Shown piece after piece: positions 4,492 through 15,415 of a stretch of DNA of 51,032 bases. The stretch lies in assembly GCA_900016875.1 (NCBI GenBank), contig FCNR01000077.1, positions 1 through 51,032 of the forward strand, written 5' to 3'. Origin of the DNA: Eubacteriaceae bacterium CHKCI004. Lineage in GTDB: Bacteria; Bacillota; Clostridia; Lachnospirales; Lachnospiraceae. The notes beneath the pieces were generated by a model. That model was not told the origin of the DNA and did no database searches. It worked only from the letters and a program-made list of their open reading frames with translations. A program made the translations under genes and the position numbers. Numbering within the stretch: position 1 is the stretch's first letter; every line of letters begins with the position of its first letter.

Positions 4492-5679
4492 ATGGGAGTC
4501 ATTCGAAATATCAAAAAAGCTGTTATCAAACGTCTGAAACTGATTTACAAGCATTACCGCTACAAGATTTATTTTCCGCGTCTCTACCGGCAGTGCTGCA
4601 AGGACAATCCGGTTCACGAAAATAAAATTCTCTTCCTGGAAATGCGCTTTGACAAGCTGTCCAATTCCATGGAATACATGTACCACGTGATGGAAGAGTC
4701 CGGCAAATACGAGCTTGCCACGGCCCACCTGCATTTTAATTTCTCCAGAGGCCGTGAATTCACGGAAAATGTAAAGCATATGATCGAGGAACTGGCTACC
4801 AGCCGGTGCGTGATCCTCGACGAGGCTTCCATCGTTCTCTCCTGTCTTCCTCTCCGGAAAGAGACCATGGCCATCAATCTTTGGCACGGCTGCGGCGCTT
4901 TCAAGAAGTTCGGAAGAAGCACGGCAGAGCTTAAGTTCGGCGCTTCCGCCGCCACCCTGAATAAATACCCGAATTACGGCAACCTGGACGTGGTGACTGT
5001 CAGCAGTCCGGAAGTCATCTGGGCCTATGAAGAGGCCATGAATCTGCCAAAGGGCATCGTGCAGGCCACCGGTATCAGCCGGACGGACTTATTCTATGAT
5101 GAAGAGTTCGTGAACAGCCGCAGGGAGAAGCTCTACGAAGTAATGCCGGAAGCCAGAGGCAAGAAGGTCATCCTCTACGCGCCGACCTTCCGCGGACATG
5201 TGGCCACCGCCACTTCCCCGGACGAGATTGATTTTTACCGGTTCGCAAAGGAACTTGGCGACGAATACGTTCTTGTATGCAAGCACCATCCGTTTGTCAA
5301 ATTCCCGCCGGAGATTCCGGAGGAGCTGTCCTCCTTTGCCAGAGATCTCACTCAGGAATTGACCATCGAGGATCTGCTCTGCTCCGCCGACATCTGTATC
5401 TCCGATTACTCGTCCCTCATCTTCGAGTATTCTCTTTTTGAGAAACCGATGATCTTCTATGCGTATGATTACGAAGATTACTGCGACTGGCGCGGTTTTT
5501 ACTACGATTACTTTGAACTGACGCCGGGACCGGTGGTAAAGAGCCAGGATGAGCTTCTGGACACCATCCACCATATCGACGAGCGGTTTGACAAACAGAG
5601 AGTCGTTGACTTTAAGAATAAGTTTATGGGAAGCTGTGACGGACATGCCACGGAGAGGATTATTTCCATGATAAAGTAA
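4492..5679 (+). CDS. CDP-glycerol glycerophosphotransferase-family protein (TagB/TagF-like)
   Basis: Predicted cytoplasmic or peripheral-membrane enzyme of 395 residues that would transfer glycerol-phosphate or a related polyol-phosphate from a CDP-activated donor in teichoic acid or surface glycan synthesis. Family signatures include NLWHGCGAFKKFG in the first half, KKVILYAPTFRG in the middle and, near the C-terminus, the donor-binding SDYSSLIFEYSLFEKPMIFY. The length fits a single transferase domain without the long N-terminal region of polymerising TagF. An AAGGAG ribosome binding site precedes the ATG. It is the second gene after the HELSH membrane protein. Exact donor and acceptor cannot be told from sequence. 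Confidence 0.88.
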   Translation: MGVIRNIKKAVIKRLKLIYKHYRYKIYFPRLYRQCCKDNPVHENKILFLEMRFDKLSNSMEYMYHVMEESGKYELATAHLHFNFSRGREFTENVKHMIEELATSRCVILDEASIVLSCLPLRKETMAINLWHGCGAFKKFGRSTAELKFGASAATLNKYPNYGNLDVVTVSSPEVIWAYEEAMNLPKGIVQATGISRTDLFYDEEFVNSRREKLYEVMPEARGKKVILYAPTFRGHVATATSPDEIDFYRFAKELGDEYVLVCKHHPFVKFPPEIPEELSSFARDLTQELTIEDLLCSADICISDYSSLIFEYSLFEKPMIFYAYDYEDYCDWRGFYYDYFELTPGPVVKSQDELLDTIHHIDERFDKQRVVDFKNKFMGSCDGHATERIISMIK

Positions 5680-5875: not shown

Positions 5876-7099
5876 TTAATCTACCGACCTCCTTTCCACA
5901 CAGTCTTCATAACTGTAACCTTCTGCCAGTGCCTTCAGGTCTTCAAAATCGGCGTCTGGCGTCATGCTCCGGATCACACCATACAGATCTTCATAATTAT
6001 AGGCGTTGACAGATACGCTTCGGGCAAGGGAATACATCTCATCATATTCCTCTCTGCTTTCCGCTGTCCAGAATCCCTGTTCCAGCCGAAAAGCCCTTCC
6101 GTTTTCCCGGAACATCTCGGCATTACCGGTGACGGCGTTATATAAAGCCGCAAAACCCGGTCCAATCTCTGACTGATATTTGCCAGCCACATAAGAAATT
6201 GTTCCGTTCCGGAATCCATAATAATTATCTTCGGAGAAACAATCTATCGTACCGCAATGGATATCCAAAGCTTCCAGAGTATCCTTAATCGGGCTGACAG
6301 GCACCGTAGACAGAATCGTCGTATACTCGCCGGAAGCTGCCAGATCAGCGGCAGCGTCACTGTTCTCTTTTCTTTCCAGATACCCCGGGAATATGGTAAA
6401 CGTTAAGCCGTCAGTTTCCACGGTTGTCGGCTCGCTGACCACCGCCAGTTCTTCCGAACTCTGCTCAAATTCTACTCCATAAAGCTCCTGTAAGGTATCC
6501 AAAATTCCCAATGTGCGAAGCCGGTGCATTTCATTTCCCTCAGCCGCGCCGCTGGAAAAAATCAGATAAGTCTCCCCTTCTTTTGCCATAGCCTGTGTCA
6601 TGGAAACACCTGTCTGATATTCCAGTTCAGTACCCGGCCCGATTTCGCCGACATAGTATGGATTCGAAGCCACCGCTTCAAAATCCGCATCCGAAGATGT
6701 TGCAGAAGGACGAATCATATACATCCCGTGTTCTGCACAAAACTCCACTTCTTTTTGCAGATCATAGGAGCCGAAGACCATCACTCCTTCCACGCCGTTT
6801 TCCGCACAAAGAGAGAGAAAATCCATCAGATCTTCGCTACCGGAGAGCCCGTCTGAATAGAGAAACGATACGTCCGGAAAACATTCTTTGATATAGCCGT
6901 CCAGATACTCCTTGAACATCATAATCTGCGCGTCCTTGATATTATAAGTCGCCACTCCGATCTTATGGCTTTCCAGACCACTGTCTTTTGCTTCCTGCTG
7001 ATCCTGCGTGGAAATGTCTTCCGTACTCGTGCCGGAGCATCCGACAAACAAAGACAATGACAGAACCAGCGCCAGAAGGAATGTTATGACCCTTTTCAT
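5876..7099 (-). CDS. substrate-binding lipoprotein, type-1 periplasmic-binding-like, last gene of the riboswitch operon
   Basis: A 407-residue secreted lipoprotein. Residues 1-20 form a signal peptide ending in the lipobox FVGC, with Cys21 as lipidation site, followed by a Ser/Thr/Asp/Gln linker. The mature part starts SHKIGVATYNIKDAQIMMFKEYL and contains GVEGVMVFGSYD, which resembles type-1 periplasmic-binding folds (sugar/Bmp/LacI-like) rather than the SBP_bac_5 family of the other binding protein in this operon. Its ATG overlaps the stop codon of the upstream ATPase gene (ATGA), so the two are translationally coupled. A second binding protein may widen the ligand range of the importer or act as a sensor. 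No dedicated permease for a type-1 binding protein is encoded nearby. Confidence 0.75.
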   Translation of the reverse strand: MKRVITFLLALVLSLSLFVGCSGTSTEDISTQDQQEAKDSGLESHKIGVATYNIKDAQIMMFKEYLDGYIKECFPDVSFLYSDGLSGSEDLMDFLSLCAENGVEGVMVFGSYDLQKEVEFCAEHGMYMIRPSATSSDADFEAVASNPYYVGEIGPGTELEYQTGVSMTQAMAKEGETYLIFSSGAAEGNEMHRLRTLGILDTLQELYGVEFEQSSEELAVVSEPTTVETDGLTFTIFPGYLERKENSDAAADLAASGEYTTILSTVPVSPIKDTLEALDIHCGTIDCFSEDNYYGFRNGTISYVAGKYQSEIGPGFAALYNAVTGNAEMFRENGRAFRLEQGFWTAESREEYDEMYSLARSVSVNAYNYEDLYGVIRSMTPDADFEDLKALAEGYSYEDCVERRSVD

Positions 7100-8082
7100 C
7101 CGCGTTCGCCCCCTTCTTTTTCTTCAAACAGATGGCACGCCACTTCGTGTCTTTCGCTAATCTTTCGAAGCATCGGTCGCTCTTTCCGGCAGATTTCCAT
7201 ACAGCGATCGCATCGGTTCTGGAACGGGCATCCGGGCGGAACGTCCAGCGGGCTTGGAATCTCGCTGTCGATGCTCTCAATCTTCTGGGTAAAGTCCATA
7301 TTGGTATCAAAGATAGATCCCAGCAGCGCCACCGAATACGGGTGTTTTGCTGACGCTTTCATCTGCGTGCCCGGAAGAATCTCCACCACATTTCCCAGAT
7401 ACATCACAGCAATCTGATGGGAAATCTGGGATACCAGAGCGATGTCGTGACAGATAAATCCGATGGCGATATTTTTCTCCCGCTGTAATTTTGCCAGAAG
7501 TTCCATGATATTTTTCTGGACGGAAACGTCCAACGCCGACGTGGCCTCGTCGCAGAGGATCACCTCCGGCTCCAGAGCGATAGCTCTGGCGATTCCAACA
7601 CGCTGCCGCTGTCCGCCGCTCATATTGTGGGGATAACGGTCGGCAAATTCTTCCGGCAGTTCCACCAGCCGGAGCAGTCTTTTCGCTTCGGTGTCTTTTT
7701 CTTTTCCGGAAATCAACCCGAAGTTTAAGAGCGGTTCACAGACAATATCTTTAATCTTCATCTTAGGATTAAAGGCAGAAGACGGATCCTGAAACACCAT
7801 CTGAATATGACGGCGGTTCTCTCTCTGTTCTTTTTTCGTCATGGACGCGATATTCTTTCCGTCAAAAAAAATCTCCCCTTCCGTGGGCTGGTCAAGTTGT
7901 ACCAGCATCCGCATGAGCGTGCTCTTGCCGCAGCCGCTCTCTCCCACGATGCCGAGCGTCTGTCCGCGGTACATTTTCAGATTGATATCGTTATTGGCCC
8001 GCAGAAAACGTCCGCCTGAAGCGGGAAACACGCGGGACACATGCCTTGCTTCCAAAATTGGTTCTTCTTTTTGATCAAACAT
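7096..8082 (-). CDS. oligopeptide/nickel-type ABC importer ATPase (OppF/DppF-like)
   Basis: ATP-binding subunit of 328 residues that energises the importer encoded upstream. The Walker A GESGCGKST is at about residues 48-56. The signature MSGGQRQRVGIARA, the Walker B VILCDEATSALD and a C-terminal oligopeptide-type extension with clustered cysteines (PPGCPFQNRCDRCMEICRKE) follow. The ATG at 8082 has GGAGGGAG at good spacing and begins MFDQKEEP; the longer frame upstream lacks support. It overlaps the preceding ATPase gene by 8 bp and the following lipoprotein gene by 4 bp. The family takes up peptides, nickel or metal chelates, and the operon context (cobalamin riboswitch) bears on which. Confidence 0.93.
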   Translation of the reverse strand: MFDQKEEPILEARHVSRVFPASGGRFLRANNDINLKMYRGQTLGIVGESGCGKSTLMRMLVQLDQPTEGEIFFDGKNIASMTKKEQRENRRHIQMVFQDPSSAFNPKMKIKDIVCEPLLNFGLISGKEKDTEAKRLLRLVELPEEFADRYPHNMSGGQRQRVGIARAIALEPEVILCDEATSALDVSVQKNIMELLAKLQREKNIAIGFICHDIALVSQISHQIAVMYLGNVVEILPGTQMKASAKHPYSVALLGSIFDTNMDFTQKIESIDSEIPSPLDVPPGCPFQNRCDRCMEICRKERPMLRKISERHEVACHLFEEKEGGERG

Positions 8083-8857
8083 AACGCTCTCCCTCCAATG
8101 TCGGCACCGCCGCAATCAGGCTGCGGGTGTATTCGGACTGCGGAGAACGGAGAACATGTTCCCGGTCTCCCTGATCCATGATCGTCCCGTGCTGCATGAC
8201 GATGACCTTATCGCCCATATAGGCAGCCACGCCCAGATTGTGCGTCACCATGATAATACTCGTTCCGTATTCCTCCCGCAATTCCATCATCTGACGAACA
8301 ATCTGCGCCTGTGTGGTCACGTCAAGCGCGCTGGTCGGTTCATCTGCCAGCAGCAGTTTCGGCCGAAATGTCATGGCCATGGCGATACCGACCCTCTGGC
8401 GCATACCGCCGGACAGCTGAAACGGATACGACTTCATGATGTTGTTGCCGTCAGGCAGGCGCATGCGTTCAAGCATCTCCACGCCTTTCTCCCAGGCGTC
8501 CTTTTTGCCGATCTTCTCATGGGTGCGTATGTACTCTGTAAATACGCTGCCAATCTTCCGGATGGGATTCATCATGGCTCCGGAATCCTGAAAGATCATG
8601 GAAATATCCGTCCCCCGAAGCTTTCGCCATTGTTCGTTCGTATTTTGAAGCAAAGACTTCTCCTCAAACAGGATATCACCGTCCGTCACCTTCCCCCCAC
8701 CCGGCAGCAGCCCGAGGACGGCACGGATCACCGTGGTTTTTCCGGAACCGGATTCGCCCACCAGTGAAGCAATCTCTCCTTTTTTCAGCGTCATGCTGAA
8801 GTTTTTCACCGTAGGCCGGTCCCCGTAGGAGATCGTCACATTTTTCAGTTCAAGCAT
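8075..8857 (-). CDS. oligopeptide/nickel-type ABC importer ATPase (NikD/DppD-like)
   Basis: The second ATPase subunit, 260 residues. The Walker A GESGSGKT is at about residues 34-41, with the signature [15 protein letters not shown] and Walker [13 protein letters not shown]. At 260 residues it lacks the C-terminal extension of about 70 residues with cysteines found in typical DppD/OppD. It is thus close to the length of the nickel-type NikD subunit. This size match is suggestive, not proof, of a metal substrate. A GGAGG ribosome binding site precedes the ATG. The gene follows the DppC-type permease after an 11-bp gap. Confidence 0.93.
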
Positions 8858-8868
8858 AGCATTTCCTC

Positions 8869-9696
8869 CTACTCATTTTTTGGATCGAGCACGTCCCGCA
8901 GGGCGTCGCCAAGCAGATTAAACACAACTACTACGATAAAAATCGCAGCACCCGGGAAAACCATCATCCAGGATGCGTTCTGGATAAACTGCCGGCCTTC
9001 GTTGAGCATAAGCCCCCATTCCGGCGTCGGCGCTTTCGCGCCAAATCCCAGGAAGGAAAGTCCCGCCAGCTCCAGCATCATGCCGCCGATATCCGTAGCG
9101 CCCGTGATGATCAGAGTCGGAATCACATTGGGAACCATATATTTCCGCAGGATGTATGATGTCTTCGAGCCGGTGACAACCGCAGCCGCCACATAATCCC
9201 GGTTTCGCACCTTTAAGACCAGGCTCCGGGCCAGACGGGCATACTTGGTCCAGCTCACCAGCGCCACGGCAATGACAGCATTGCGGATGCTTGCTCCCAT
9301 GATACCGGCAATGGCCATGGCAAACACCATGCCCGGGAAGGACACCATCAGATCGGCGATACGCATGATCACCGCGTCCACCCATCCGCCAAAATATCCG
9401 GACAGCACGCCCAGTATCGTACCCAGTACGAAGATCAGAATCACGACGGAGAACGCCGCCACGAGACTGGTACGCGCCCCGTAGATCACCCGGGTAAAGA
9501 TATCTCTCCCCAGCTTATCGGTGCCGAAAATGTGCTCGCTACTCGGCGGCTGCAATGCGTCTGTGAGCACCGCCTCCGACGGGCTGACGCCTCCTGTGAT
9601 CACCGGTGCAAAAATGGCGATGAGAATGATCAGTAGGGCAAGAAATGAAAAAACACAAAAGGATTTATTTTTTATGATAAAATTTTTTACTTTCAT
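8869..9696 (-). CDS. ABC importer permease (DppC/NikC-like)
   Basis: Inner-membrane permease of 275 residues. It has the N-terminal OppC_N-like helix (residues about 13-35), then GTDKLGRDIFTRVIYGARTS, which is highly conserved in DppC/OppC/NikC proteins, and a BPD_transp_1 domain with about five more helices. The ATPase-contacting EAA-type loop is near the C-terminal half (ELAGLSFLGFGAKAPTPEWG). An AGGAGGGAG ribosome binding site precedes the ATG. It is 3 bp from the end of the partner permease gene, so the pair is translationally close-coupled. Confidence 0.93.
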   Translation of the reverse strand: MKVKNFIIKNKSFCVFSFLALLIILIAIFAPVITGGVSPSEAVLTDALQPPSSEHIFGTDKLGRDIFTRVIYGARTSLVAAFSVVILIFVLGTILGVLSGYFGGWVDAVIMRIADLMVSFPGMVFAMAIAGIMGASIRNAVIAVALVSWTKYARLARSLVLKVRNRDYVAAAVVTGSKTSYILRKYMVPNVIPTLIITGATDIGGMMLELAGLSFLGFGAKAPTPEWGLMLNEGRQFIQNASWMMVFPGAAIFIVVVVFNLLGDALRDVLDPKNE

Positions 9697-9699
9697 ATC

Positions 9700-10638
9700 C
9701 TATCTCCCTCCTTTCATTCTCGGATCCACCAGATTGTAGGAAATGTCAACAAGCAGGTTGATCACCATATAGATCAGCGAAATCCATAACACATAGCCCT
9801 GAATCAGCGGGTAGTCATACGCCGTGATAGCGGATACCGCCAGATTCCCCATGCCCGGATAGGTGAAGATCACTTCCACCACCGCCGTACCTCCAAGCAG
9901 AGAACCCATGGACAGGCCGAACATGGTAAGAAGCGGCAGCAGCGAGTTGGGAAATACATTGAGCCAGAGAATCTTCCACTCTTTTACGCCCCGGGCTCTC
10001 GCTCCGATGACGTAATCCTGGCTGAGTTCCTCCACGATCGCCGTCCGCACCTGCCTTGTGTACTTGGCCGACATGGCAAAGGCCAGTGTAACAGCCGGAA
10101 GAATCATACTCTTAAAGTCTCCGCCGGAACAGACCACCGGCAGCCAGCCAAGCTGTACGCAGAAAAACATCATGAGAAGGAGTCCCACCCAGAAGTTCGG
10201 CATGGACACGCCAAAAAATGTGATGCCGCGCAGACCGTAATCCAGCAGGCTGTTCTTATGGGTTGCCTGAATCATGCCGAGCGGTACGGACACCACGAGC
10301 ATCAGGACCATGGCAAATAGCGACAGCTTTAGTGTCGGCCACAGGCGGGCAAGCAACAGCGAAGACACCGAACTTCCGTACGCGTAGGAAGTGCCAAAAT
10401 CTCCGTGCAGGCAGTTCCACAGCCAGTCCACATACTGCACCAGTACCGGACGGTTCAGTCCCATGGCTTCCCTTGTCTGCTCTATGATCTCCTCGCTGGG
10501 CATCATGCCGGTGGCCGCGTACATGGTACGCACCGGATCACCCGGCGCCAGATATGTGATCAAAAACGACAGAAAACTGATTCCAATGGCAACGATCACA
10601 ATCTGAATCAGTCTCTTTCCTATTTGTTTTGCAGTCAA
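9700..10638 (-). CDS. ABC importer permease (DppB/NikB-like)
   Basis: Inner-membrane permease of 312 residues, DppB/OppB/NikB family. The N-terminus IGKRLIQIVIVAIGISFLSFLITYLAPGDP is the family hallmark, followed by about five helices and the conserved C-terminal ending LVDISYNLVDPR. The best start is the TTG at 10638, which follows GGAGAG by six bases; an in-frame GTG 7 codons upstream has no ribosome binding site. A 123-bp spacer separates it from the binding-protein gene upstream, which is common because the binding protein is needed in excess. Confidence 0.92.
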   Translation of the reverse strand: MTAKQIGKRLIQIVIVAIGISFLSFLITYLAPGDPVRTMYAATGMMPSEEIIEQTREAMGLNRPVLVQYVDWLWNCLHGDFGTSYAYGSSVSSLLLARLWPTLKLSLFAMVLMLVVSVPLGMIQATHKNSLLDYGLRGITFFGVSMPNFWVGLLLMMFFCVQLGWLPVVCSGGDFKSMILPAVTLAFAMSAKYTRQVRTAIVEELSQDYVIGARARGVKEWKILWLNVFPNSLLPLLTMFGLSMGSLLGGTAVVEVIFTYPGMGNLAVSAITAYDYPLIQGYVLWISLIYMVINLLVDISYNLVDPRMKGGR

Positions 10639-10667
10639 AACGTTCTCTCCTTTCCGCACGGGGCGGA

Positions 10668-10694
10668 CTGCAGTGTTTCTGAACCCGGCTGCAG
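10668..10694 (-). other. intercistronic stem-loop between binding protein and permease genes
   Basis: CTGCAG at 10668-10673 pairs with CTGCAG at 10689-10694 around a 15-nt loop. It lies in the 123-bp gap of the importer operon with no T tract. Such a stem may protect the upstream binding-protein mRNA or attenuate readthrough, which would be consistent with the stoichiometry usual for importers. The stem is short, so this is tentative. Confidence 0.3.
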
Positions 10695-10761
10695 ACTTTC
10701 CCGTACGTTTTCCTCAAACAGCAATTTTCTATCTGTCTGCATACCCTGCATGCAGCCAAAA

Positions 10762-12426
10762 TTATTGAGCGGCAGGATAAATATCCGTTGTCAGCCAATA
10801 ATAATCTGCGGTAGGAATCGCCGCGCCGCCGATGGTCTCATTTCTGGAGATCATGGAGCTGTTATAATAACCATGCACAACAACAGCCGCATCATCAAGA
10901 AGAATCTGCTGCATCTGCTGGATAATATCCCGGCGGGCGTCATTATCAAAGGTCGTGCCTAACTGCTCAAATAATTTGTCATATTCTTCATTCTTGTAAC
11001 CACAGTAGTCAGAACCGGAGGTGGAACACCATGCGGCCAGATACTCGGTCGGATCGCCGGTACCCACTGTCGTCCAGTTGGAACCATTCAGATCAAAATC
11101 ACCGGACTGATAGCTGTCCCACTGACGGGCGGAATCTCCAATCTCCAGATCAACGCCGATGCCGATCTCAGAAAGCTGCTGCTGAATTGCTTCGGCAAAA
11201 TCATCCAGACAACGGTTTTCATAAGTCACATAGTGAAGTACAATTTCCTTGCCATCCAGTTCCCGGGTGCCGTCGCCGTTGGTATCCACGATACCGGCGT
11301 CATCCAGAAGCTTCTTCGCCTCTTCCTGATTATACGGATACGGATCGGTCAGATTCTCATAACCATAATCCAGATTGGATGGAAGCACGGAATAACCGGA
11401 TGTGTACAGTCCGCCTACGGTCACGGAACACATGGTATCATCATCAAGCGCCATGAGCACAGCCTCCCGCAATGTCTTGTTGGACAGCAGTCTTCCCTCG
11501 GACATGTTCATGTGGGCGAGACCTGTACGAACGCCGCTGGCGATGGTCACAGTAAAGTTCGGATCTTCCCGCAACGTATTTAAGTCGTTGATATTCGTCA
11601 CATTTTCTGCCAGATCAAGCTGACCGGACTGAAGCGCCATCGCTTTGGCGGAGGCGTCGCCCATGTAGAGAAGCTCTACCGTATCAAACGGCACATCCCC
11701 GTTCCAGTAATGTTCGTTGGCAACCATCGTATATCCCACTTCCTCCCGGAAATTTGTGGCCACATACGGGCCGGTACCAATCACACCGTGATCATAATCC
11801 GTCGTATGTTCCACATCAATGATCGCCATGACCGGGTACGCCAGGTTCTTCGTAAGGTCTACATACGGCTGGGTCGTCCTGATCGTCACGTTGCCTGTCG
11901 CATTGTCCGCTGTGATCTCCGCCTCGGCTTCCAGATAATTCTGCGGAGCGGAGGAGCCGTTCGGTGCTTCCTCATACAGCCGGTCGAAGCTTGCTTTGAC
12001 CGCTTCCGCCGTCACGTCGCATCCGTCGGAGAATTTCACACCATCCCGGATGTGGAACACCCACTCGGTATGTTCGTCATTGACGGTATATTCGTCACAT
12101 AATGTATTGACCACGTTCATGGAATTATCGAACTTGAACAGGCACTCGCCTACGCCGTAACGGGAAAGATTCCAGGCACAGTTGATCTCCGCTGCCGGAT
12201 CCAATCCGCCGCCGCTGTAATTCTGGATACCAAAGGTCATGCTGGTTCCGGTGGAGATATCCTGTTCCGTCTGATACGCTTCCTGATTGACCTCGTCCTC
12301 CCGGTTGCCGGAAGCCGCGCCCGTATTTCCTTCCTGCGCGCCAGATGACCATCCGCAGCCGGCCACACCTCCGATGACCATCACGGACGTCATTGCTGCC
12401 GCAAGTAATTTTTTCATTTTCTTCAT
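10762..12426 (-). CDS. ABC importer substrate-binding lipoprotein (SBP_bac_5; peptide/nickel family)
   Basis: Extracellular binding lipoprotein of 554 residues. The signal peptide ends in the lipobox VAGC (Cys24). A Gly/Ala/Ser/Asn linker leads to an SBP_bac_5 domain: RYGVGECLFKFD near the start, EWVFHIRDGVKFSDGCDVTAE, the VIGTGPYVATNF segment and the C-terminal DPTEYLAAWCS segment. This family (DppA, OppA, NikA and the metallophore-binding CntA-type proteins) binds peptides, nickel, or metal-metallophore complexes. The ATG follows GAGGAGGT. It is 24 bp downstream of the MATE gene and co-oriented with the permeases. Ligand identity is not readable from sequence; the cobalamin riboswitch suggests a cobalt- or corrinoid-linked ligand. 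Confidence 0.92.
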   Translation of the reverse strand: MKKMKKLLAAAMTSVMVIGGVAGCGWSSGAQEGNTGAASGNREDEVNQEAYQTEQDISTGTSMTFGIQNYSGGGLDPAAEINCAWNLSRYGVGECLFKFDNSMNVVNTLCDEYTVNDEHTEWVFHIRDGVKFSDGCDVTAEAVKASFDRLYEEAPNGSSAPQNYLEAEAEITADNATGNVTIRTTQPYVDLTKNLAYPVMAIIDVEHTTDYDHGVIGTGPYVATNFREEVGYTMVANEHYWNGDVPFDTVELLYMGDASAKAMALQSGQLDLAENVTNINDLNTLREDPNFTVTIASGVRTGLAHMNMSEGRLLSNKTLREAVLMALDDDTMCSVTVGGLYTSGYSVLPSNLDYGYENLTDPYPYNQEEAKKLLDDAGIVDTNGDGTRELDGKEIVLHYVTYENRCLDDFAEAIQQQLSEIGIGVDLEIGDSARQWDSYQSGDFDLNGSNWTTVGTGDPTEYLAAWCSTSGSDYCGYKNEEYDKLFEQLGTTFDNDARRDIIQQMQQILLDDAAVVVHGYYNSSMISRNETIGGAAIPTADYYWLTTDIYPAAQ

Positions 12427-12450
12427 CTCTTGTTACCTCCTCATAAAAAA

Positions 12451-13776
12451 TTAGTTCCTGCGCTTCAAATAGCGCATCGTCACTGTCATAAGAATCACCG
12501 CCATCGCCCAGGACGCCGGATAACTGAACGCCACGCTCTGCACCGATGGATGGAGCGACATGGCCGCCAGCATAAACACAATCCGAAAGCCACAGAAACT
12601 CACCACCGTCACGATCATCGGAGCAACTGCCTTCCCGTATCCGCGGAGATTACCGCTTAACACTTCCAAAATCACATACAGAAAATATAACGGGAAAGTA
12701 ATCCGTATGATATCTGCCGTCTCTGCTATCACCGCCGCGTCTTTTGTAAAAATGTGCAGGTATACCGGGGCTGCCAGCATCAGCAATACTCCCGCCGCAA
12801 AGATTACGAGGGAACCGCCCAGTATACAGATCTGATTGCTCTGCCGGATACGCCCCGGCTTATCGGCGCCATAATTTTGTCCCACGAAAGATACCACCGC
12901 TTGACCAATAGCGAGCATTGGCAGATATAATACCATCTCCGTCCGGAAATATACGGTGAACGCCGCGATGGACGTAACCCCCAGCGTATTGATCTGGGAC
13001 TGAATCAAAATGTTGGAAAACGTGATCACAATGGACTGGATGCCGGCAGGCACACCGACCCGCAGTACATTGCTCAGTTCTCTGATATGCAGTCCGGGCT
13101 GCGACAAACGCAAGGCATAGGGGGTGCGCAGCCAGATCAGATAGACCGTGGCACAGCAGGCGGCCACCGCCTGGGAAATGACCGTCGCAACAGCTGTTCC
13201 TTCTACACCCATGCCCAGCACGGCGATACAGACGTAGTCTCCGACAATATTGAGGACACCTCCCACGCACTGAAAGATCATCGGGTTGCGGGAATCGCCC
13301 AACGCCCGGATCACACCGCTCAAAAGGTTGTACATCACCACCGGCACCATACCGACCATATAGACCCGCAGATAAAGCACAGCCTGCGGCATGATATCCT
13401 GCGGCGTTCCCATGGCTGTAAGAAACAGTTCCGCTCCGCCGATTCCGAGGAACATCAGAATAAGACCACCCCCGATTCCCACCAGAAACATGGCCTGAAT
13501 CAGCCTGTGCAGACTATCCCATTGCTTTGCGCCAAAATACTGTGCTGTAAACACGCTGGTTCCCACCGCCATTCCGGTGAAAAATCCCACCAGACAGGTG
13601 ATGATCAAACTGCTGGCGCCCACCGCCGCCGAAGCCTCTGTGCCAAGAAACTGTCCCACAAACACCAGATCCACGGTGGAGTAGAGTTGCTGGATCAAAC
13701 TGCTTCCCAGAAGCGGCAGTGCAAAAAACACGAGGCTTTTTGCTACATTTCCTTCTGTGAGACCCCCGCTCTTCAC
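12451..13776 (-). CDS. MATE family efflux transporter
   Basis: Integral membrane exporter of 441 residues, with about twelve transmembrane helices arranged as two MatE halves. The N-terminus (SLVFFALPLLGSSLIQQLYSTVDLVFVGQFLG) and GVPAGIQSIVITFSNILIQS at the start of the second half are typical of the DinF/NorM-like Na+ or H+ antiporters. The start is a GTG at 13776 preceded by GGAG, overlapping the TGA stop of the upstream amidohydrolase gene as GTGA, so the two are translationally coupled. Membership of a cobalamin-riboswitch operon next to an importer is unusual for a MATE protein. It could export a small chelator or a hydrolysis product, which is inference. Confidence 0.9.
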   Translation of the reverse strand: MKSGGLTEGNVAKSLVFFALPLLGSSLIQQLYSTVDLVFVGQFLGTEASAAVGASSLIITCLVGFFTGMAVGTSVFTAQYFGAKQWDSLHRLIQAMFLVGIGGGLILMFLGIGGAELFLTAMGTPQDIMPQAVLYLRVYMVGMVPVVMYNLLSGVIRALGDSRNPMIFQCVGGVLNIVGDYVCIAVLGMGVEGTAVATVISQAVAACCATVYLIWLRTPYALRLSQPGLHIRELSNVLRVGVPAGIQSIVITFSNILIQSQINTLGVTSIAAFTVYFRTEMVLYLPMLAIGQAVVSFVGQNYGADKPGRIRQSNQICILGGSLVIFAAGVLLMLAAPVYLHIFTKDAAVIAETADIIRITFPLYFLYVILEVLSGNLRGYGKAVAPMIVTVVSFCGFRIVFMLAAMSLHPSVQSVAFSYPASWAMAVILMTVTMRYLKRRN

Positions 13777-14954
13777 TTGTCGTTCTCCGCGTCCTGCTCC
13801 ATATGGGCAGGTTCCTCACAATGCCGGTGAACGTGAACATGACCGTCCTGATGCTGATGTCCATGTCCACCGTGGGTATGAGGACCATACTCGCCATGGG
13901 TATGTTCTCCATGGAAGAATGTGCCATTTGTCTCATGGCTGTGATCCATACAATCATCCGGAACATGATCGGCCGCTTCCTCTTCCAGTTCATCCACACA
14001 CTCCCCATAATGTCCGTAGGCAATGAGCGGTGAATTTGCCGGGACGGAGTAGGAAATGGTCTGATACAGGATCGTGGCGTCCTCCCTCATCCGCACTTCC
14101 TCGATCACATTGCCGAAATAATCCTTCAATATGCCCACCACTTCATCTTTCCGTACCGCGTCGCCCGCCTTTTTAAACGGATGCCAGCATCCTTCTCTGA
14201 CCGAATCCAGATAATGGACATGGTGCATATGCACCGGAACCTGTCTCTGCGTTTCCGGCTCCGTCATAAGGACGCCCAGATACCGGAGAATGTTCCGGAC
14301 GTCTTTGCGGGACGCCTCCGCTTCCTCCTCGGACCACTGGCCTTTGCAGCCCCGCTCGATGAGCACCGACGGGACGCCCAGTGTTCCGGCGTAATTGTAG
14401 GCGCCCCCGGAGCCGATGCCGGACTTCACATAAAACGGTACGTCCGCCCTTTTCGCCATCTCCTCCGCCTTTGCCACGGTCTTTGGAGCGGCGTTGCCTA
14501 TGGAATAGATAAACGGCGTCAGATCCTCAAACCAGTCCCCGTTATGTACATCAATATAATAATCGATCCGGGAAAAGAGTTCCTTTTCCATAAAGTACGC
14601 CAGCTTATCCGTAAATGTACCGTCCATACTTCCCGGGAACACCCGGTTTAAATTCTTGCCGTCCTCTCTGGATACGCTGACCGTCCGGGCGCGGAATCCA
14701 TTGATATTCACGATGTGAATCAAAATGAGAATTCCCCTCACATCTTTTGGCTCCAGCTGCCGGGCAAGTCTCGTCACGCATTCAATACCAACATACTCCG
14801 CATTGTGAACGCCGCCGGTAATGAGCACGGTATCGCCGTCTTCCTCTCCATAAATAATGGTTGCAGGGAGTCCCTCGTCCGTAAAAGGAAGCGTCAGAAA
14901 ACCGCTGACTTTCTGTCCCTTCCCTACTGTGAAATTTGCCAAATGAAATTCCAT
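13773..14954 (-). CDS. aspartoacylase/succinylglutamate desuccinylase-family zinc amidohydrolase with His-rich C-terminal tail
   Basis: Cytoplasmic M14-type zinc amidohydrolase of 393 residues, first gene of the riboswitch operon. Zinc ligands are visible as His50 and Glu53 (GGVHNAEYVG) and His137 (IDVHNGD), with the likely catalytic Glu200 in VLIERG. Arg/Asn residues of the NLNRVFPG motif (about 101-108) match substrate binding in the family. The last 60 residues form a separate tail with 16 histidines alternating with Gly, Thr, Asp and Val, plus two cysteines. This resembles the metal-storage tails of nickel/cobalt chaperones. The ATG at 14954 has GGAGG with 7-nt spacing and follows the riboswitch. 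The natural amide substrate is unknown; a metallophore or corrinoid side-chain amide are possibilities only. Confidence 0.85.
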   Translation of the reverse strand: MEFHLANFTVGKGQKVSGFLTLPFTDEGLPATIIYGEEDGDTVLITGGVHNAEYVGIECVTRLARQLEPKDVRGILILIHIVNINGFRARTVSVSREDGKNLNRVFPGSMDGTFTDKLAYFMEKELFSRIDYYIDVHNGDWFEDLTPFIYSIGNAAPKTVAKAEEMAKRADVPFYVKSGIGSGGAYNYAGTLGVPSVLIERGCKGQWSEEEAEASRKDVRNILRYLGVLMTEPETQRQVPVHMHHVHYLDSVREGCWHPFKKAGDAVRKDEVVGILKDYFGNVIEEVRMREDATILYQTISYSVPANSPLIAYGHYGECVDELEEEAADHVPDDCMDHSHETNGTFFHGEHTHGEYGPHTHGGHGHQHQDGHVHVHRHCEEPAHMEQDAENDK

Positions 14955-15024
14955 ACAATATCCTCCTGTCACTTACATAAATCCTATATGAAATTGTTGA
15001 AAAATGGGTAAAACACGAAAATAC

Positions 15025-15142
15025 ATTCTAAGACCTTGCTGCATATCAGAAACATCAGAACACTGTACTGGAGGCAGCAAGCTGTTATCAAAAACACAGT
15101 CTTAGAATTCTACCGAAGAAACGGTATAAGAAATTCTAAAGA
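15025..15142 (-). promoter_or_regulatory. expression platform of the cobalamin riboswitch (mutually exclusive hairpins)
   Basis: Two alternative structures share the segment 15099-15108. Downstream hairpin: 15025-15034 pairs perfectly with 15099-15108 and 15035-15042 pairs perfectly with 15074-15081, followed on the minus strand by a T-rich stretch. Upstream alternative: 15100-15108 pairs with 15133-15142 (one bulge), with a small ACCG/CGGT hairpin inside. Forming one prevents the other, as expected for a terminator/antiterminator or sequestering switch. Which state corresponds to ligand-bound is not determinable by eye. Confidence 0.65.
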
Positions 15143-15159
15143 TATACTAATACATACAT

Positions 15160-15382
15160 CGTCCATCGACCGCAGACAGATGCAAATCCCTGACAAGCAG
15201 TTCTCCTGACTTCGGCTTAGCGCTCTCCTGCGCCTTCCCAGAGAACGTCTTCCCCAGTGGCAAATGCAGGCAGCAAACCATTCACAGTGACGGGATCGTA
15301 CCGGACTCTCACCGGTTTCTCTATTAATCCTCGCGGAACTTGCCGGACTGTGCAATTTTCTATGAAATTACCTTTATCACAC
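15160..15382 (-). ncRNA. cobalamin (AdoCbl-type) riboswitch aptamer
   Basis: On the minus strand the conserved core is legible: GGATTAATAGAGAA, then CCGGTGAGAGTCCGG, then GATCCCGTCACTGTGAA (the universal CCC-GCCACTG-type element, here CCCGTCACTG), and the B12 box AGCCGAAGTCAGGAGAACTG followed by CTTGTC. Order and spacing match the cobalamin riboswitch. It begins near the predicted transcription start of its own promoter and ends about 200 nt before the amidohydrolase ATG. It should repress or tune the whole downstream importer operon in response to cobalamin. Confidence 0.93.
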
Positions 15383-15386
15383 CAAA

Positions 15387-15415
15387 ATTGTATCATGATA
15401 TTTTATATATGTAAA
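15387..15415 (-). promoter_or_regulatory. promoter of the riboswitch operon
   Basis: On the minus strand a -35 TTTACA (15410-15415) and an extended -10 TGATACAAT (TACAAT at 15387-15392) have 17-bp spacing. The predicted start site near 15380 coincides with the 5' edge of the cobalamin aptamer, which supports both calls. Confidence 0.75.

Follow-up and report, generated by a model that had tools for sequence, protein, structure and literature searches.

Results

Eight genes behind a cobalamin riboswitch

The window analysed here, a stretch of 51,032 nucleotides from Eubacteriaceae bacterium CHKCI004 (contig FCNR01000077.1 of assembly GCA_900016875.1), contains an eight-gene operon headed by a cobalamin riboswitch, its open genes spanning 14972 to 5876 of the minus strand. 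The genes encode a hydrolase, a MATE family exporter, a Nik/Opp-type importer of five subunits and a second lipoprotein. The riboswitch aptamer (RF00174, 15179..15358, minus strand) scores 93.5 bits in cmscan (E 4.8e-22) against a gathering score of 31.5 and matches model positions 1-189 completely; the Rfam search thus bears out the aptamer named in an initial annotation of this DNA, and cmscan of the window gives zero further Rfam matches at gathering score. The RF00174 family senses corrinoid. Upstream of the aptamer, where the same annotation had placed a promoter, a consensus scan finds a promoter-like site, TTTACA and TACAAT spaced by 17 bases with TG before the -10 element (15415 to 15387, minus strand). 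Such a match is not evidence of function, and promoter-like sites number 10 in a 741-base stretch (both strands) against a mean of 2.6 in shuffles.

Two minus-strand hairpins are predicted in the leader between the aptamer and the first gene. Hairpin 1 (15101..15140; -12.8 kcal/mol for 15092-15142, z -3.08) is the first hairpin of the likely expression platform, and the larger hairpin 2 (15025..15108; -27.3 kcal/mol for 15012-15112) is followed by the U-rich GUAUUUUCGUGUU. Because bases 15101-15108 are common to both, the hairpins are mutually exclusive, an arrangement that would suit transcription control, with hairpin 1 as putative anti-terminator or terminator and hairpin 2 as putative terminator. 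A simple consensus scan lists no terminator on the minus strand.

The genes are co-directional, as first described, with spacings of -41 to 102 bases (in order -4, 24, 102, 3, 11, -41 and -4, counted from the called starts and taking 14954 for the first gene). The first gene, initially labelled a His-rich amidohydrolase, encodes an AstE/AspA-type hydrolase (13773..14954, minus strand): the His-rich tail stands, and the label is refined to PF24827, AstE_AspA_cat (94.6 bits, cut-off 25). Read from the sequence, its better start is the ATG at 14954 behind AGGAGG, which gives 393 aa. An HxxE...H motif, which we take to be zinc ligands, is present, and H56, E59 and H143 (399-aa numbering) are invariant in 20 rows. 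The C-terminal tail has 15 His in its last 60 residues, and 11 of the 13 closest relatives have at least five His in theirs. Relatives of the AstE/AspA type hydrolyse N-acyl amino acids. With DoeB, AstE and aspartoacylase the window hydrolase shares the PF24827 domain and the motif, and it differs from them by its tail and its importer neighbour; identity with the DoeB deacetylase was rejected (TIGR02994 115.8 against a cut-off of 402.7). At five other loci (L039, L041, L042, L045 and L086) the cluster holds a further hydrolase paralogue besides the first, more distantly related (188-221 bits).

The remaining genes, likewise on the minus strand, follow in the order exporter, importer, lipoprotein. 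The MATE exporter (12451..13776, 441 aa) matches PF01554 at 184.8 bits and TIGR00797 at 211.9 over a cut-off of 147.4. The importer comprises a cluster-C solute-binding lipoprotein (SBP_bac_5, 10762..12426, 554 aa), a permease of the NikB/Opp2B type (9700..10659), a permease of the NikC/Opp2C type (8869..9696), an ATPase of the NikD/OppD type (8075..8857, 260 aa, PF00005) and an OppF/DppF-type ATPase with an oligo_HPY tail (7096..8082, PF00005 and PF08352), for which the better start read from the sequence is the ATG at 8082 behind GGAGGG. Both permeases exceed the NCBIfam cut-offs of the 'nickel' Opp2B and Opp2C models (NF045470, 380.5 against 350; NF045474, 326.3 against 300), and both fall below those of the NikB and NikC models proper (312.1 against 447; 296.8 against 358.45). 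The initial annotation had considered the 260-residue length of the first ATPase compatible with a metal-type importer. The length does not argue for one, since OppD at 250.6 (cut-off 575) scores as high as NikD at 242.2 (TIGR02770, cut-off 318.7), and neither passes. The last gene encodes a 407-aa lipoprotein (5876..7099) that belongs to no Pfam or NCBIfam family and matched nothing in a PDB sequence search at E up to 1; a type-I (ribose/galactose-like) periplasmic-binding fold is predicted over its whole core.

The binding protein groups apart from its E. coli counterparts

The solute-binding protein reaches no NCBIfam cut-off for NikA, CntA, DppA or OppA: its NikA scores are 222.6 (NF045468, cut-off 600) and 161.2 (TIGR02294, cut-off 393), its CntA score is 113 (cut-off 800) and its DppA score 72.2 (cut-off 1005). 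A tree of 71 proteins places it in a 53-row clade (support 100/99) that contains none of E. coli NikA, DppA, OppA and GsiB; the tree flags long branches, that of E. coli NikA (EcNikA) among them. The initial annotation had proposed phylogeny to separate metal-type from dipeptide-binding proteins. The protein indeed stands apart from the latter, and it is not grouped with E. coli NikA either. The 16 tree rows for which a preceding riboswitch had by then been identified fall within two subclades of the 53-row clade.

By fold the binding protein is nearest to NikA structures, including that of S. aureus NikA bound to a nickel complex of histidine and thiazolidine. The EcNikA residues R97, R137 and H416, which we take to be its metal site under this numbering, align to N, a gap and G. 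In a 21-row alignment R137 is kept, besides EcNikA, only in L069_4959 and L073_13190, and several relatives have an R aligned with R97. Since R137 and H416 are missing, the metal would probably be held by a small ligand. Taken together, the NCBIfam cut-offs, the tree and the alignment at the EcNikA site exclude operon proteins from membership of EcNikA, CntA, DppA or DoeB.

The importer core stays with the riboswitch

We compared the locus with relatives by two routes, hydrolase neighbourhoods at 80 named loci and genome-wide scoring of the binding protein. A profile built from 19 binding proteins (profile A2), 16 of them picked for a preceding riboswitch, was used to score 51 genomes chosen through the hydrolase. 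RF00174 lies upstream, in the same orientation and no more than 5 kb away, at 30 of the 39 places scoring above 600 bits (27 found by script, and those in G300, G307 and G311 by cmscan); three places have none and six are undecided. Eleven of these 39 were first judged among the matches listed, and cmscan then decided five of the 11. At places of 350-515 bits an upstream RF00174 was found at 0 of 39, 28 of them judged among the matches listed.

Of the 39 high places, 19 are rows of the profile itself, and 18 of these have a riboswitch. Without its members the high places divide into 12 with a riboswitch, two with none and six undecided (n=20), so that 12 of 14 decided places are linked, as against 0 of the 11 lower places on the complete list (Fisher p 2e-5) or 0 of 10 when one contig-end fragment (G308:C51) is removed (p 7e-5); these values are descriptive and not a test, as the species are not independent.

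An order-wide draw of 295 genomes, which overlaps with the 51-genome set, gave 30 binding-protein places. The search for RF00174 covered 21 of the 24 genomes (all save G496, G542 and G597), and eight of the 27 places so examined have a riboswitch upstream: 7/11 above 600 bits (5/9 without members of the profile) versus 1/16 lower (G521). Flanks were taken for 20 places, G521 excepted. For the hydrolase loci, cmscan covered 34 of the 80 and the genome search for RF00174 took 50 of the 80 genomes; two pairs of handles are duplicates (G263 = G347 and G028 = G337). We conclude that association with the riboswitch, in Lachnospiraceae and in other Clostridia, is a property of the importer core and not of the eight-gene order.

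At three loci of genus g357 (L126, L127 and L129) a binding protein above 600 bits stands without importer permeases or ATPases in the fetched stretch and adjoins an unidentified gene of 564-570 aa.

Gene order varies and the neighbours are optional

Hydrolase matches at E 1e-20 or better occur in 32 of 299 genomes of the family, the source genome included, and the nearest relatives are in Anaerobutyricum and 'Eubacterium sp. An11', which makes an Anaerobutyricum species the most likely source of the window. Where at least 8 kb is available on both sides of the hydrolase, the binding protein and both permeases lie within 10 kb at 33/45 loci and a MATE gene at 15/45. The initial annotation had proposed a search for the same eight-gene order elsewhere and would have counted its lack of conservation with the riboswitch against its own reading, an objection that in part applies. 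The order is found whole only in L035 and as the first seven genes in L034 (L036 is cut at both ends); what recurs widely is the importer core behind the riboswitch. The hydrolase gene precedes the riboswitch in L044, L075 and L086, follows it in L055 and L062, and is divergent in L089. Since order, direction and the presence of hydrolase, MATE and lipoprotein all vary, the eight genes are ruled out as a conserved unit. Of the six riboswitch loci fetched from the order-wide draw (L121-L125 and L128, one genome contributing two), two have the hydrolase nearby, three the MATE, four the lipoprotein and two a heavy-metal ATPase.

Metal efflux genes are among the recurrent neighbours. Heavy-metal P-type ATPases adjoin the cluster at eight loci (L039, L041, L042, L044, L055, L075, L123 and L124), and in the six examined the motif is CPC rather than SPC. 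CPC indicates heavy metals as a group and is not specific to cobalt. In L047 a NiCo riboswitch (11887-11964) and, behind it, a CDF efflux pump (11980-12912) are flanked by a hydrolase-methyltransferase pair on one side and a cobalamin-riboswitch importer operon on the other. In L039, L041, L044 and L075 a relaxed Rfam search (E up to 0.5) did not find the NiCo riboswitch. LysR-type regulator genes lie in or next to clusters in L055 (9069-9998), L062 (9066-10004), L071 (11699-12631) and L113 (3375-4283), two of them between riboswitch and hydrolase. Finally, we note that L099, on a contig labelled Deltaproteobacteria, has the hydrolase, MATE, permeases and ATPases of the set, which may reflect transfer or misbinning.

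A second kind of system, without the riboswitch, combines the same kind of importer with class-I SAM methyltransferases, often fused at one or both sides of the hydrolase. Such fusions occur at 37 of the 80 loci (for example L006, L010, L012 and L113) and are about 570 or 820-856 aa long; a Nik-type importer is near 16 of the 23 fused loci that have 8 kb on both sides. Cmscan of fused-hydrolase loci L054, L070, L072, L081, L084, L088 and L111 gave zero riboswitches, and L113 likewise. Two of the methyltransferases were compared with the PDB, where they have general relatives only, the best being phosphoethanolamine-type N-methyltransferases, so that the substrate is not indicated. In Clostridium magnum (L050) both kinds of system lie side by side; in its methyltransferase system the hydrolase found is a 98-aa piece between ATPase and MATE (L050:18405-18701). 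The source genome has a second Nik-type importer as well, with a methyltransferase (L120, G000:C52:332500-351500, at about 6282-12200 of that stretch), near which there is no hydrolase, no MATE and no riboswitch. In L071 a second cobalamin riboswitch (5002-5198, opposite strand) may head a run of genes whose last member, at 9203, is a methyltransferase-hydrolase-methyltransferase fusion.

B12 synthesis and other cobalt importers

The source genome encodes anaerobic B12 synthesis, including CbiD and, recognised by eye, a CbiK-like chelatase. RF00174 occurs at two sites across this genome. The other one (C49:36156-36352, locus L033 on G000:C49) precedes a 190-aa secreted protein and sits behind a putative ECF S-component and a putative CbiZ-type adenosylcobinamide amidohydrolase, both recognised by eye; it looks like a corrinoid-salvage locus separate from the operon.

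Is the importer found where other cobalt importers are lacking? Among the 51 hydrolase-chosen genomes, a binding protein above 600 bits occurs in 14/14 without CbiM versus 24/37 with CbiM (Fisher p 0.011), a comparison in which two of the 37 have a marginal CbiM (23.3 and 24.4 bits) and the genome set is a chosen one, rich in drafts. The family used here, PF01891, presumably also takes in NikM. B12-making genomes that have the riboswitch system and lack CbiM include G600 (a single contig), G261 and G263, and in some of these, the one-contig G600 among them, CbiM and NicO are both absent; NicO was absent from all 20 genome handles tested (19 genomes at most). Set against the order-wide draw considered below, the phyletic evidence points both ways: in genomes with no other known cobalt importer this one is a candidate, and not a proven substitute for CbiM.

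Discussion

What does the operon import? We propose that the whole is a corrinoid-repressed cobalt-acquisition operon that imports a cobalt chelate, to which we assign a probability of roughly 0.65. Its core, cobalt import under B12 control, we regard as highly probable. Cobalt supply is favoured because corrinoid control suits it, and the cobalt reading is supported by the riboswitch, by the linkage of importer and riboswitch in many species, by the metal-efflux neighbours and by B12 synthesis in the genome. The initial annotation had suggested an unrecognised system for cobalt acquisition. Cobalt under corrinoid control is supported by these four lines; the claim of novelty is reduced, as systems of this kind had been predicted before, according to Zhang et al. 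(2009; PMC2667541).

Under this proposal, scarce corrinoid would let transcription through the leader and plentiful corrinoid would shut the operon. The importer would take up Co(II) complexed with a small organic ligand, and the imported Co(II) would feed the anaerobic B12 pathway through the CbiK-like chelatase. More tentatively, the hydrolase may open an amide of the ligand in the cytoplasm while its His-rich tail catches the freed metal, the MATE pump may export the ligand or its product, and the second lipoprotein may bind, or sense, further ligand. This cycle of ligand hydrolysis and export, suggested in outline by the initial annotation, fits the observations, and we consider it doubtful.

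Several observations weigh against the proposal. The metal-site residues of EcNikA are not conserved in the window binding protein. Three close systems (L057, L066 and L108) have upstream sequence but no RF00174 at gathering score; a hydrolase-MATE pair with 5.3 kb upstream (L038) is likewise without RF00174 in cmscan, and the four riboswitch-less places above 600 bits in the order-wide draw all belong to genus g357. Among six riboswitch loci fetched by their binding protein, the hydrolase is near two and the MATE near three. As partners are absent from several riboswitch loci, either the importer can do without the ligand cycle or those genomes encode the partners at other sites. Furthermore, the source genome also has CbiM with CbiQ- and CbiO-like neighbours (the latter recognised by eye), so the operon is not the sole cobalt candidate there. 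In the order-wide draw a clear CbiM is present in three of six other genomes with the riboswitch system (G027, G028 and G521) and in none of 14 without it (the scores in G415 and G524 being 26.1 and 21.9 bits); ten of these 14 genomes, in which both the riboswitch system and a clear CbiM are lacking, have CbiD. Genomes without the riboswitch system thus lack CbiM more often than genomes that have the system.

The alternative that survives best keeps the cobalt and gives up the cycle: plain uptake of a cobalt-amino-acid complex from the gut, for example Co(His)2, with the hydrolase and MATE as passengers that have unrelated jobs. S. aureus NikA with its histidine-containing nickel complex among the nearest folds fits this alternative, as does the optional nature of both neighbours. 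Hydrolase and importer nevertheless recur together, at the 33 of 45 loci noted above, with varying gene order and with the hydrolase on either side of the riboswitch, and passenger status seems to us possible but on the unlikely side. Going further than the chelate import we propose, the genes might form a cobalt metallophore pathway, in which the hydrolase would finish or dismantle a secreted amide chelator, the MATE would export it and the Nik-clade importer would retrieve the cobalt complex, all under the corrinoid riboswitch; the methyltransferase-hydrolase fusions and the sister importer would then make a methylated version for another metal. We offer this as a speculation, a shade less likely again.

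Nickel under B12 control, as where nickel and corrinoid enzymes cooperate in acetogens, would account for the NCBIfam assignment of both permeases to nickel types and for clusters in Blautia, Clostridium and Eubacterium callanderi, groups in which acetogens are known. We consider it improbable: the riboswitch family senses corrinoid, the riboswitch-less sister systems are free to be the nickel ones, and the nickel residues of EcNikA are missing. The import of a corrinoid or corrinoid fragment whose amide the hydrolase trims would suit cobalamin riboswitch control as well as cobalt uptake does, and would give work to an enzyme of an amide-cleaving family, but it is very unlikely given that nickel-type systems are the closest match to the binding protein and the permeases, that metal-efflux pumps recur beside the cluster and that the putative CbiZ and ECF S-component stand at the genome's other riboswitch. 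Equally unlikely is nutritional import of N-acyl amino acids or peptides opened by the hydrolase, the riboswitch tuning it for a B12-dependent catabolic route, a reading to which the hydrolysis of N-acyl amino acids by AstE/AspA relatives and the occurrence of SBP_bac_5 and oligo_HPY in peptide importers lend themselves, but from which the tree's separation of the binding protein from E. coli DppA, OppA and GsiB, the recurrence of riboswitch and metal pumps, and Pfam results for 18 neighbour proteins (a minority of the neighbours; one possibly catabolic, a PLP enzyme in L057) point away.

How does the proposed cobalt-chelate importer compare with known systems? With E. coli NikABCDE it shares the five-subunit architecture and the cluster-C fold, and it differs by its riboswitch and by a binding protein that lies outside the EcNikA clade, without R137 and H416. 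Staphylococcal CntABCDF and staphylopine represent the opine metallophore systems, which resemble the operon, by analogy, in pairing a Nik/Opp importer with a separate exporter for a small metal ligand. In contrast to Cnt, the window binding protein scores far below the CntA cut-off (113 against 800), the eight genes include no opine synthesis gene, and the exporter is a MATE protein. The cobalt ECF importer CbiMNQO has in common the supply of cobalt for B12 and possible riboswitch control, and its subunits are unrelated.

The closest published counterparts are NikABCDE systems behind B12 riboswitches. Zhang et al. (2009) report that those of C. tetani and D. hafniense had been predicted earlier and set them apart from nickel-specific ones, and experiments by Kennedy et al. 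(2022; PMC9600662) employed the S. ovata nikA cobalamin riboswitch. They share the Nik/Opp five-subunit importer with a cobalamin riboswitch in front; compared by description only, the operon here adds the AstE-type hydrolase, the MATE and the type-I binding lipoprotein. Sun et al. (2013; PMC3766115) include cobalt transporters in B12 regulons, and their main text does not contain the terms nickel and nikA; a Nik-type cobalt importer is absent from the part of the table available from a 2021 review (PMC7689651). Among the papers listed in the literature searched, we found none on hydrolase, MATE or methyltransferase partners in a cobalt system, nor any on a cobalt metallophore, cobalophore or cobaltophore, which says nothing of papers beyond that literature. 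Thus the B12-riboswitch Nik-type importer is of an already predicted kind, and the companion hydrolase, exporter and second binding protein are an unexplained addition that hints at a dedicated cobalt-carrier molecule.

Gut anaerobes that make B12 need cobalt, and some of those considered here have neither CbiM nor NicO. For them the clade described here gives a concrete candidate importer. If it is true that the hydrolase, MATE and methyltransferase partners handle a chelator, that molecule would be a metallophore for cobalt.

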